From NCBI GenBank assembly GCA_029881035.1, contig JAOUNI010000016.1:1-48197 (forward strand): DNA of 48,197 nt, in the 5' to 3' direction. Of this stretch, positions 9,170 to 37,809 are shown one piece after another. The notes below the pieces were generated by a model. The model worked only from the letters and a program-made list of their open reading frames with translations, made no database searches and was not told the origin of the DNA. A program made the position numbers and the translations under genes. Position 1 is the first letter of the stretch, and every line of letters begins with the position of its first letter. Origin of the DNA: Gammaproteobacteria bacterium. Its GTDB lineage: Bacteria > Pseudomonadota > Gammaproteobacteria > SZUA-229.

Positions 9170-9607
9170 CTACACCTGCAACCAGAAGGTCACAGGGCCA
9201 TCATTGATTAGCTCAACCGCCATATCAGCACCGAACTGTCCAGTCTGAAGCTGCGGAATCTGCCAGCTCATTATATCAACAACTGCCGCAAATAAATCAG
9301 CCCCCTGCTCAGGTGATGCTGCTGACGAAAAACTGGGGCGTTTGCCCTTATTCGTGTCTGCCGCCAGCGTGAATTGCGGCACCAATAACACTTCTCCAGC
9401 AATATCTAGCACACTCAGGTTCATCTTACCGTCATCATCAGAAAATACACGGTATTCCAGTATTTTTTTTACTAGTCGCTCTGCCTGTTCGCGGCTATCG
9501 TTTTTCTCCACACCCAATAAAACCATCAGGCCCGGACCAATTTTTGCGATCTGCTCTCCATCAACAGCCACCGAAGCACTTGTCACACGCTGCAGTAAGC
9601 CAATCAT
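9170..9607 (-). CDS. dtd: D-aminoacyl-tRNA deacylase
   Basis: Cytosolic proofreading enzyme that removes D-amino acids (and glycine from tRNA-Ala) mischarged onto tRNA. The 145 residues match the family length. It begins MIGLLQRVTSASV and carries the two active-site motifs: PQFTLAADT (SQFTL in most homologues, here with Pro in place of Ser) and NDGPVTFWL with the Gly-cis-Pro pair. It heads the minus-strand his-tat block. The putative regulatory RNA starts on the opposite strand just upstream. Confidence 0.95.
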   Translation of the reverse strand: MIGLLQRVTSASVAVDGEQIAKIGPGLMVLLGVEKNDSREQAERLVKKILEYRVFSDDDGKMNLSVLDIAGEVLLVPQFTLAADTNKGKRPSFSSAASPEQGADLFAAVVDIMSWQIPQLQTGQFGADMAVELINDGPVTFWLQV

Positions 9608-9646: not shown

Positions 9647-9664
9647 TGTAGGAATAATCCTACA
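9647..9664. promoter_or_regulatory. GacA/UvrY-like upstream activating palindrome
   Basis: TGTAGGAATAATCCTACA is an inverted repeat TGTAGG-N6-CCTACA, with one further G:C pair outside (9646/9665). It has the spacing and five of six bases per arm of the GacA box TGTAAG-N6-CTTACA that drives rsmX/Y/Z in pseudomonads. It lies about 60 bases before the first GGA of the plus-strand RNA candidate. A TATAAC at 9668-9673 and a CATAAT at 9709-9714 are possible -10 elements. It could instead act on dtd, whose start is 40 bases away. Confidence 0.6.
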
Positions 9665-9714
9665 CCATATAACCCAATCCACTGATAGCATAAATTTGCG
9701 CGTTTACACATAAT

Positions 9715-9913
9715 TCCACACAAGGACAAAGGGAAAGGGTCAAAAAAGGACATAGGGAAATAACGTAGCATATGTTTAGATCAAGGATATGGATAAAGGA
9801 CTAATTTAGATATAAAGGAATAACCTCAAGGAATATAACGGACCGCTACAGCGCGAGACTCAACCACCAATCAGGGAAGGTCACAGACCCCGGTTTTACC
9901 GGGGTCTTTTTTT
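9715..9913 (+). ncRNA. Candidate CsrB/RsmZ-type CsrA-sequestering small RNA
   Basis: Between two minus-strand genes, a plus-strand unit of about 200 bases carries eleven GGA triplets (first base at 9724, 9732, 9748, 9756, 9785, 9791, 9798, 9817, 9830, 9840, 9875) and no TCC. Six are AGGA and three GGGA. It ends in a strong intrinsic terminator that no plus-strand protein gene explains. CsrB/RsmY/RsmZ RNAs have this design: many GGA sites that titrate CsrA/RsmA, a terminator, and a GacA-type activating palindrome (here 9647-9664). There is no convincing open frame. The 5' end is a guess. Not all GGAs are clearly in hairpin loops, which is the weakest point. Confidence 0.7.
9886..9913 (+). terminator. 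Rho-independent terminator of the candidate small RNA
   Basis: GACCCCGG (9886-9893) pairs perfectly with CCGGGGTC (9899-9906) around TTTTA, followed by seven T. The T-run is on the plus strand only, while genes on both sides are on the minus strand. It therefore marks an independent plus-strand transcript. Confidence 0.9.
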
Positions 9914-9925
9914 GCGCTATCACCA

Positions 9926-10744
9926 TCACAATCCTGCAAAATCAAACAACTCAGTATCCGCCAAATGCGAAGGTTTAACATTAGCCAGGCTGCGCATAAT
10001 AATATCGCTTCTTCCCGGATATTCAGTCTCCCAGTCCCGGACCATCGATTTGATCACTTTGCGTTGCATATTTTCCTGCGACCCACATAGATTACAGGGG
10101 ATAATCGGAAACTCTCGTAGACCAGCATAAGTTTCAATATCGCTTTCTTTACACAAAGCCATCGGCCGAATAACCATATGTTTTCTGTCATCACTCAGTA
10201 ATTTGGGCGGCATCGACTTGAGCTGGCCATTAAAAAACATATTCAGAAAAAGCGTTTCTACCATGTCATCGCGATGATGTCCCAATGCAATTTTGCTGGC
10301 ACCAATCTCATCCGCAAAATTATACAAAATGCCGCGCCTCAATCTTGAACATAAACCACAGGTAGTTTTTCCTTCAGGTATTTTCTCTTTAACAATACTA
10401 TACGTGTCCTGCTCTACAATATGGAATTCAACACCCAGGTCACGTAAATAATCAGGAAGAATATTTTCAGGAAACCCTGGTTGTTTCTGATCGAGATTAA
10501 CAGCAACTAGCTCAAAATTAACCGGGGCTTTTTTCTGCAGCTCAAGCAATATATCAAGCATTGTATAACTGTCCTTGCCACCGGACATGCAAACCATGAT
10601 GCGGTCACCCTGCTCGATCATTCCGTATTGAATAATGGCCTCACCGACATTGTGTCGTAAACGTTTTTGCAGACGCTTGATATCACCCGCCATAACTGGC
10701 AGCTCTACATTAATAATCGTTTCATTGCTCATGATTTCAGTCAT
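9926..10744 (-). CDS. ttcA: tRNA 2-thiocytidine(32) synthetase
   Basis: Thiolates cytidine 32 of certain tRNAs, using ATP and an oxygen-sensitive [4Fe-4S] cluster. From the chosen start it has 272 residues. The PP-loop [13 protein letters not shown] binds ATP, and the two CxxC pairs, [10 protein letters not shown] and CNLCGSQ, hold the cluster. [14 protein letters not shown] is also characteristic. I place the start at the ATG at 10744, seven bases after AAGGA; an ATG 15 bases further upstream lacks such a site. The reading frame overlaps the end of the acyltransferase gene by eight bases, which suggests coupling. Confidence 0.94.
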
Positions 10745-11675
10745 ACAGTGATCCTTCACCCGGTGGTCGTGTTTGAAATAAACGAAAAGACCAGAAATAT
10801 TGCGAAGGACACGCCGCGATTGTTTTTTCTATAGCCTGATTCATAGCAAGCACATCATTGATATCATCGCCGGTAAAATTTACTATTGGTGATAACAAAG
10901 TAGTTTTATACTTTTTTTCACGCTTGTCATAACAACAGATGCAAGGTAACACTGTTGCGTCACAGGATTTAGCCAGACGCCCTAATACAGGGATGGTTGC
11001 TTTTTGCACACCAAACAAAGGTACAAAAATAGAACGCTCACTGCCTAAATCTTCATCAGCCAAATAGACTAATGGATCTCCCATCCTGGTAGCCCGTATA
11101 ATTGGGCGCAGACCATCTTCTCGAGGAAAAATCGTGCCACCATAACGTACTCGTCTATTAGCTATCAACCAGTCGAAAACTGGATTACGCATTGACTTAT
11201 AAGGACCATTAGCACCATAGCGCATAGAAATTGAAGCAATAGCAACATCCAGACCGACGCTATGAGACAATAAAACGATGATGTTACGGTTTTGTTTACG
11301 ATAATACTCGATTTGCTCAAAGCCTTCAGTCAATATCATCCGGCGTAACATAAAAGCAGGATAGAACCACAATCTTGCGTAATACAACATCGCGCGAACA
11401 TACTCAACAAAATGAGTTCGCAACATTACATCGATTTCAGCTTCATTTTTATTTGGATAACATAGCTTTAAATTCACTCTGGCAATATGGTAACGCTTTT
11501 TATTTTTGGCGGCGCCATAAATACCCAGGACATGACTTAACATCGATGTTACTGGTGCTGGCAGCCATGCAATAAAAAACATGACTATGACGCCCAACCA
11601 TGTGAACCAATTGCGCGGATGTAATAAAGATAAACGAAAAGCCGGAATATGACTAATGACAGAATGGCTAGCCAT
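10737..11675 (-). CDS. LpxL/HtrB-family lipid A lauroyl-type acyltransferase
   Basis: Inner-membrane acyltransferase of the LpxL/LpxM/HtrB family, which adds a secondary acyl chain to the lipid A precursor at the cytoplasmic face. The 312 residues begin with a hydrophobic segment ([16 protein letters not shown]) and carry the catalytic H-x4-D motif in [11 protein letters not shown], then FVPLFGV and the C-terminal [14 protein letters not shown]. The start at 11675 has GGAAG seven bases upstream and lies just after the trkH stop. Which acyl position it serves cannot be decided. It sits between trkH and ttcA on the minus strand with tight spacing. Confidence 0.88.
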
Positions 11676-23000: not shown

Positions 23001-27074
<4,074 letters not shown>

Positions 27075-27175
27075 TGGCACTTCCTCACTGGAACAGCGAA
27101 CCCCGGTGTGTAGCTAAATGCCTGCACACACCTATGCAACGACAGCTTAGGGCATGGATCAGAAAAACTCCTTTG

Positions 27176-35892: not shown

Positions 35893-37809
35893 CTAATAAC
35901 CATTTAAAAACTTTTCAAACTCGACTGCTGGCAGCGGCACACTGATTAAATACCCCTGAGCAATATCACAACCATATTTTCTAAGCATTTCCATTGCTGC
36001 TTCATCTTCAACCCCTTCCGCCACAACTGTTAGACCAAGATTATGCGCCAACTCAATAGTAGAACGCACCACCACTTCATCATCCTTATTGGTGTGTACA
36101 TTTTTCACAAATGACTGATCTATTTTTATTTCATTTACCGGCAGCTTAATCAAGCGACTTAATGACGAATAACCAGTACCATAATCATCAATTGATAAAT
36201 GAATACCTAGTTGACACACATACTCAAGCACTTCTTTCAACGAATCATATTCGGATAAAAATAAATTCTCGGTAATCTCAAAGGTCAGGTAACTCCCATT
36301 TTTTTTATCACCAATAATTCTATCTAGATTTCTTATGAAATTTGGATCCATTAATGTTTGCGGCGCTAAATTGACCGCTACTCGTAGCTCCTGATTTCTA
36401 TTCCAGATTATGGCCTGCTGCAATGCTGCCTCAATGGCCCAATAAGTATATTCATCCAGCAATCTATTTTGCTGAAGAACTTTTATAAAATTATTGGGCG
36501 AAACACTGCCACGTTCATCACTGACCCAGCGCCCCAATGCTTCTGCAGCAACAAGCTTATTGTTTTTGATAGAAACCTTTGGCTGATAATACAATTTAAA
36601 CTGCTTCTCTTCCAAAGCACGACGAATATCAGCCAACATAACCAGATGACCTCGTGTCATCTGATCATGATCAGGATCGTATAAGTATAATCCGGCAGAG
36701 TTATTTTTTGCTGCATACATAGCTGAATCGGCGTGACTCAACAAGCTACTAGAATCATCACCCTGATTCGGGAATACAGCCACACCAATACTGGCGCTAA
36801 CCGCTATTTTCATGTTAATGATGTTAAATGTGACATCAAGCAGCGCTTTAATTTCTTTCGCTCTCTGTACCGACTTTTCTTCGTCACAATCTGGCAAAAT
36901 AATCACAAACTCATCACCGCCCAGTCGCGCCAACGTTTCTTCTGATTTCATATTGCGTTCAAAACGTCGTGCAATTTTCTTCAGCAACAAGTCTCCACGT
37001 TCATGCCCCAATGCTTCGTTAACTTCTTTGAATCGATTAAGATCAATCAATAAAAGTCCGACACTCTCTTCGGCCAAAATAGCCTGGGAAATATTACGCG
37101 AAAGACGGTCATGAAATAGTGAGCGATTAGCCAGACCTGTAACAGTATCGTATAACGATAAATATTCCAGCTCTTTATTACTCTCTAACAATTGTTTATT
37201 GAGTACCTCCAGACGCATACGATAATCATCGTTAATTCTTCTGGTTGTCTCCATATTATTAACCGCCATCGCATTTTCGATGGCTATGGATACGATACTG
37301 GCAAACATCTGCAACAAGTTTAAATCTCTTCGCGTAAACTCATCACCACTGATTTTATTTATGCCCGCAATACCACCTAAAAAGTGCCGCCGTCCCTGCA
37401 TCGGCACCAAAATCATAGTGCCTGCTTCTTCTTCCCAAAGATTTCTTTCATCATCATTCAGTTCATTAAGGACGCCTCTCCACCAGGGTCTTTTGTGTTT
37501 CCACACCCAGCCACAGACACCAAACTCAAGAGGAAGAGACTCACCGACGATTTCATTAGAATTTTTACCGGAACCGCCGCGATAGGTATAAGTTTCGCAG
37601 TTCTCGTCCAGAATGGGGACTAATAACGTTTCTGCACCCACCAATGCACGCGCACGCTCCGAAACTATCTGAAAAACTCTATCAAGATCCAGCTCACTAC
37701 CAATCTCAGTAAAGGTTTTCTGCAATAGATCAATTTCTACCTCTCTGTCTTTGAGGCTTTGATTCAGATCGACTACATTTGATTTTTTATTCTTTGTATT
37801 ATCAAACAC
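35893..37809 (-). CDS. GAF-GGDEF-EAL cyclic-di-GMP signalling protein
   Basis: A 638-residue cytosolic protein with a short coiled coil, a GAF domain (about 32-180) containing FGVCGWVWKHKRPWW, a linker helix, then GGDEF (intact at 297-301) and EAL (E423-A424-L425). The I-site RxxD upstream of GGDEF is absent. The EAL domain keeps the usual catalytic set: FEITEN, IDDYGTGYSSL, EIKIDQSFV and VAEGVED. It is probably a phosphodiesterase or bifunctional. The GAF domain may bind a small ligand. It converges with the sensor kinase gene, nine bases apart. Confidence 0.92.
   Translation of the reverse strand: MFDNTKNKKSNVVDLNQSLKDREVEIDLLQKTFTEIGSELDLDRVFQIVSERARALVGAETLLVPILDENCETYTYRGGSGKNSNEIVGESLPLEFGVCGWVWKHKRPWWRGVLNELNDDERNLWEEEAGTMILVPMQGRRHFLGGIAGINKISGDEFTRRDLNLLQMFASIVSIAIENAMAVNNMETTRRINDDYRMRLEVLNKQLLESNKELEYLSLYDTVTGLANRSLFHDRLSRNISQAILAEESVGLLLIDLNRFKEVNEALGHERGDLLLKKIARRFERNMKSEETLARLGGDEFVIILPDCDEEKSVQRAKEIKALLDVTFNIINMKIAVSASIGVAVFPNQGDDSSSLLSHADSAMYAAKNNSAGLYLYDPDHDQMTRGHLVMLADIRRALEEKQFKLYYQPKVSIKNNKLVAAEALGRWVSDERGSVSPNNFIKVLQQNRLLDEYTYWAIEAALQQAIIWNRNQELRVAVNLAPQTLMDPNFIRNLDRIIGDKKNGSYLTFEITENLFLSEYDSLKEVLEYVCQLGIHLSIDDYGTGYSSLSRLIKLPVNEIKIDQSFVKNVHTNKDDEVVVRSTIELAHNLGLTVVAEGVEDEAAMEMLRKYGCDIAQGYLISVPLPAVEFEKFLNGY

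Follow-up and report, generated by a model that had tools for sequence, protein, structure and literature searches.

A predicted Csr/Rsm-type small RNA gene with a GacA-type box, conserved beside dtd in a gammaproteobacterial order

Among the described systems closest to the element reported here are the CsrB and CsrC RNAs of Escherichia coli, which contain many GGA sites (22 and 14, respectively), end at an intrinsic terminator, are activated through a UvrY palindrome (about 183 bp upstream in the case of csrB) and operate with a cognate BarA/UvrY/CsrA set. The published UvrY site is the 18-nt palindrome TGTAAGNNNNNNCTTACA, and BarA/UvrY-type systems have been proposed to act via such RNAs throughout Gammaproteobacteria (PMC4682653); the site obtained for CsrA by SELEX is RUACARGGAUGU (PMC7652899). 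The Csr sRNAs Pf1-Pf3 of Pseudoalteromonas are lineage-specific RNAs recognised via GGA motifs, promoter and terminator (PMC11882849). RsmX, RsmY and RsmZ of Pseudomonas combine a GacA-type palindrome and GGA repeats with antagonism of CsrA/RsmA. Csr/Rsm RNAs diverge fast, so that the RNA of each lineage must be found anew.

Here we describe an unannotated element that occupies the gap between dtd and ttcA in a gammaproteobacterial genome (Gammaproteobacteria bacterium, SZUA-229; assembly GCA_029881035.1). The window, i.e., the whole stretch of DNA analysed, comprises 48,197 nt of contig JAOUNI010000016.1, read on the forward strand. We interpret the element as a GacA-activated gene for a Csr/Rsm-type small RNA that would sequester CsrA, a reading to which we assign a probability of roughly 0.93; that the gene is transcribed, that GacA binds its box and CsrA its product, and that this has a regulatory effect is what we infer from the sequence. 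Its features are:

9647 to 9664, no strand assigned: GacA/UvrY-type palindrome TGTAGG-N6-CCTACA; the predicted start lies about 65 bp further downstream
9682 to 9689, plus strand: conserved putative promoter element CTGATAGC, invariant in six congeners and sitting where a poor -35 element would be
9709 to 9714, plus strand: -10 element CATAAT, invariant in six congeners and present in other genera
9721 to 9912, plus strand: predicted Csr/Rsm-type small RNA of about 190 nt, from GGA excess, conservation, structure and lack of an open reading frame
9724, 9732, 9748, 9756, 9785, 9791, 9798, 9817, 9830, 9840 and 9875, plus strand: GGA motifs, predicted CsrA sites
9737 to 9741, plus strand: 5' arm of helix H1, GGGUC, covarying between genera
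9857 to 9861, plus strand: 3' arm of helix H1, GACUC, covarying between genera
9765 to 9769, plus strand: 5' arm of helix H2, GUAGC, covarying between genera
9845 to 9849, plus strand: 3' arm of helix H2, GCUAC, covarying between genera
9850 to 9877, plus strand: block of highest conservation in the RNA, AGCGCGAGACUCAACCACCAAUCAGGGA, with a CACC core
9885 to 9912, plus strand: intrinsic terminator, stem 9885-9907 with 10 pairs, then a T-run

The element shares with CsrB and CsrC the multiple GGA sites, the terminator, the upstream palindrome and the cognate regulatory genes, but it has only 11 GGA motifs, its box lies at about 65 bp, its locus is another one, no sequence similarity was detected, and its GGAs are not clearly placed in hairpin loops. 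Palindrome, GGA repeats and the predicted antagonism of CsrA/RsmA are common to RsmX, RsmY and RsmZ as well, from which it differs by scoring below the Rfam thresholds, by its dtd/pip locus, by two conserved long-range helices and, compared with RsmY, by its greater length. Pf1-Pf3 belong to another lineage and were tested experimentally, whereas our element is known from sequence alone; a GacA palindrome is not described for them in the accessible part of that source.

At gathering thresholds, Rfam gave no match in the window and none for the Csr/Rsm families in 20 relatives; even at E 10, CsrB, CsrC, RsmX, RsmY and RsmZ found nothing in relatives. The best Csr/Rsm score in the window belongs to RsmY (15.6 bits versus a threshold of 57 bits); this match and the other low-threshold ones, to sroD and PrrF, are terminator-driven or due to chance. 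The sequence-only reading had proposed a divergent member overlooked by covariance models, with which these scans agree. The element was found described nowhere in a literature search, though it may have been predicted computationally before. It would represent a new order-wide family of Csr/Rsm-type RNAs, outside every Rfam Csr/Rsm family.

Recounting the plus strand of 9724-9877 confirmed the 11 GGA and zero TCC triplets reported earlier, and this is the GGA-richest 154-nt stretch when both strands of the window are scanned, the runner-up having 8. For 154 nt, the window average predicts 1.25 GGA and the A/G-rich composition of the stretch itself 3.9; 11 was reached by none of 20,000 mononucleotide shuffles. 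The flanking protein genes, dtd (9170-9607) and ttcA (9926-10759), both lie on the minus strand, as had been noted, and the terminator, detected on the plus strand only, was likewise found where it had been seen. No plus-strand open reading frame of at least 15 aa starts within 9690-9900. (dtd encodes D-aminoacyl-tRNA deacylase, and pip, mentioned below, prolyl aminopeptidase.)

Element DNA occurs in five of the six congeneric genomes at 78-86% identity; neither it nor dtd was found in the sixth, a draft of 72% completeness. The conserved alignment columns cover the box, CTGATAGC, CATAAT, the GGA motifs, the 3' block and the terminator, and the spacer on the dtd side is not conserved. A first covariance model, built from nine sequences, gave matches at E 0.01 in 42 of the 54 genomes and 12 of the 14 genera sampled; the same sample stands for both family and order, since one family represents the order. 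The few weakest of these matches (e.g., G035) are probably chance, as they have no box and few GGAs. With a refined model, full-length copies were recovered in two further genomes of genus g12 and other copies were completed. Ten genomes without a convincing match were checked for dtd; in nine of them dtd itself was undetectable, and in the tenth (G015) dtd is present, with less than 900 bases of contig beyond it, which are coding and read as a proline iminopeptidase-like protein. Across the order, the neighbour of the element is either dtd directly or pip and then dtd, and a model scan of 80 ttcA neighbourhoods of named genomes matched four congeners only. GGA motifs, box and terminator are kept in relatives sharing the dtd-ttcA gap and order-wide, the synteny and conservation for which the sequence-only reading had called. 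The 41 homologues carry 10.7 GGA per copy versus 3.9 after shuffling, and 79% of their GGAs stand in an ANGGA context (37% in shuffles).

Neither the covariance model nor a search for a box plus GGA cluster revealed a second copy in the genome of the window. In genus g11, second, diverged copies of the RNA (L141 in G066, L159 in G067, L165 in G069) are not at dtd but close to carA, a bacterial sugar transferase gene or both, and every one of them has a GacA-type box of its own; they recall the RsmY/RsmZ pairs of Pseudomonas.

The box TGTAGGAATAATCCTACA at 9647-9664 has no mismatch to TGTARG-N6-CYTACA and is the sole exact site in the 2,691,573-base genome, in which eight one-mismatch sites lie elsewhere; the palindrome claimed upstream of the GGA stretch is thus present in perfect form. 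The covariance models begin downstream of the palindrome, so that the box is outside the search model, yet it is found with zero or one mismatch upstream of all 40 of the 41 homologues having upstream sequence, and hence constitutes independent evidence. Its distance to the model start is 42-50 bp or about 70 bp (94 for the truncated match L166), a step of about 22 bp that we infer to correspond to about two helical turns. Note also that the extreme end of another contig of this genome has a pair of GacA-type palindromes with one mismatch each and a spacing of 24 bp (L220/L221, G000:C23:47559-47618), upstream of a gene for a PEP-CTERM-like secreted protein; a second Csr RNA could lie beyond the end of contig C23, lost to an assembly gap.

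Comparison between genera identified two long-range helices. H1 appears as GAGUC/GACUC, GAGCC/GGCUC, UUGGC/GCCAA or AUGGC/GCCAU, and H2 as GUAGC/GCUAC, AUAGC/GCUAU, GUAGCAA/UUGCUAC, GAGCAGU/ACUGCUC or UGCAGU/ACUGCA. With mean pairing scores of 12.5 and 13.5, respectively, both helices surpass all 300 partner permutations, and the structure outscores shuffled and slid controls in both pairing and covariation score; the terminator, too, varies in sequence across genera with its pairing kept. In the RNA of the window itself, the ensemble probability of H1 and H2 is only about 0.27-0.30, so the helices may be transient or protein-assisted. Folding leaves the G of GGA more often unpaired than other G residues (0.53 versus 0.39), with most GGAs not in clear hairpin loops. 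An RNAalifold structure derived from six congeners was set aside in favour of H1 and H2, its pairs being mostly invariant and without net covariation.

The genome encodes the proteins that such an RNA would require: csrA and gacA/uvrY, which were looked for, are both present, together with a gacS/barA-type gene. csrA adjoins an aspartate kinase gene, and residues 1-57 of its product can be aligned gap-free to the solved CsrA structure 2bti, from which they differ by few substitutions. The gacA/uvrY candidate scores 259 bits versus an NCBI equivalog cut-off of 280, matches over its full length, is by far the best of the genome, and is located one gene away from uvrC, the usual neighbour of gacA/uvrY. 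The BarA model is matched nearly end to end by a 905-aa sCache-HAMP-HisKA-HATPase-REC-Hpt kinase (659 bits versus an equivalog cut-off of 890), which is again the top match of the genome.

According to the mechanism we propose, a signal would lead the BarA/GacS-type kinase to yield phosphorylated GacA, which would bind the palindrome and activate the promoter, whose -35 element is poor. Transcription, predicted to start near 9721, would proceed to the terminator and give an RNA of about 190 nt, whose roughly 11 GGA sites would bind CsrA dimers, drawing CsrA off mRNAs. H1 and H2 would join the 5' and 3' parts of the RNA, leaving GGA-rich, weakly structured stretches.

A regulatory RNA of a different kind, namely a base-pairing (Hfq-type) sRNA that uses the 3' block as its seed and has a coincidentally A/G-rich body, would account for conservation being highest around AUCACC (mean column identity 0.86 versus 0.59 in the middle); we regard it as very unlikely, because the number of GGAs and their ANGGA context are kept while the sequence between them changes, the GacA-type box is always there, and in folding the block is no more unpaired than the rest (0.53 versus 0.52). 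It is also unlikely that this block gives the RNA another conserved function in addition to the sequestration of CsrA. The block (9862-9877) reads AACCACCAA in the window and AUCACCUCC in two distant relatives (L185 and L192), the latter being what we take to be the letters of the 16S rRNA 3' tail. If such a function exists, the block could pair with Shine-Dalgarno regions, and one RNA would free ribosome-binding sites of CsrA and itself act there by pairing.

That the element fills the dtd-ttcA gap would also be expected of a cis-acting untranslated region of either gene rather than a free-standing RNA gene, but both genes are on the opposite strand, box and terminator are kept where ttcA is not adjacent or pip intervenes before dtd, and other genomes have second copies close to carA and to sugar-transferase genes, all of which leaves this explanation hardly any probability. 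The resemblance of AAGGA to a Shine-Dalgarno sequence could hint at a short coding gene with several such motifs; with no plus-strand open reading frame of 15 codons, and single-base indels between close relatives, this is extremely improbable. Finally, the base composition (43% A, 25% G) would suit a chance purine-rich spacer beside a fortuitous palindrome, a reading that the covarying helices and the conservation across 12 of the 14 genera refute almost completely. The small RNA gene is favoured because the GGA excess is kept in homologues together with the box, the covarying helices and the plus-strand terminator, no reading frame is present, and the genome has csrA, gacA and BarA-type genes; as far as sequence evidence goes, these findings support the initial proposal of a CsrB/RsmZ-type regulatory RNA with a GacA-like box.

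The initial suggestion that the c-di-GMP proteins of the window are Csr targets is, in contrast, unsupported. Two genes are concerned:

24483 to 27080, minus strand: GGDEF-EAL protein, REC-PAS-GGDEF-EAL
35893 to 37809, minus strand: GGDEF-EAL protein, GAF-GGDEF-EAL

In neither case do the 80 nt preceding the listed start contain an ANGGA motif, where it should be kept in mind that the starts are uncertain and that CsrA sites can lie elsewhere.

Outside the order, the top score among 365 gammaproteobacterial genomes was 29.7 bits, whereas the four family members included in that search scored at least 104.7 bits. Sub-threshold matches in four other gammaproteobacterial families (L183 in G342, L190 in G211, L192 in G093 and L185 in G233) are all located at pip or dtd, have CAAUCACC / CAAUCACCUC plus a terminator in common and, in three of the four cases, are preceded at 61-105 bp by a GacA-type box without mismatch. 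Probably they represent distantly related Csr RNAs at the same locus, and since locus, terminator, CAAUCACC and mostly the box are shared, the pip/dtd locus may be old. That the locus is shared with other families points to a Csr RNA that is old and stable in position and the history of which could be traced, and a covariance model recovering the RNA is now supplied. The element supports the proposal on BarA/UvrY-type systems (PMC4682653), and the order, known here mostly from metagenomes and with no RNA of this kind catalogued before, would gain its missing CsrA antagonist and the output of its circuit.
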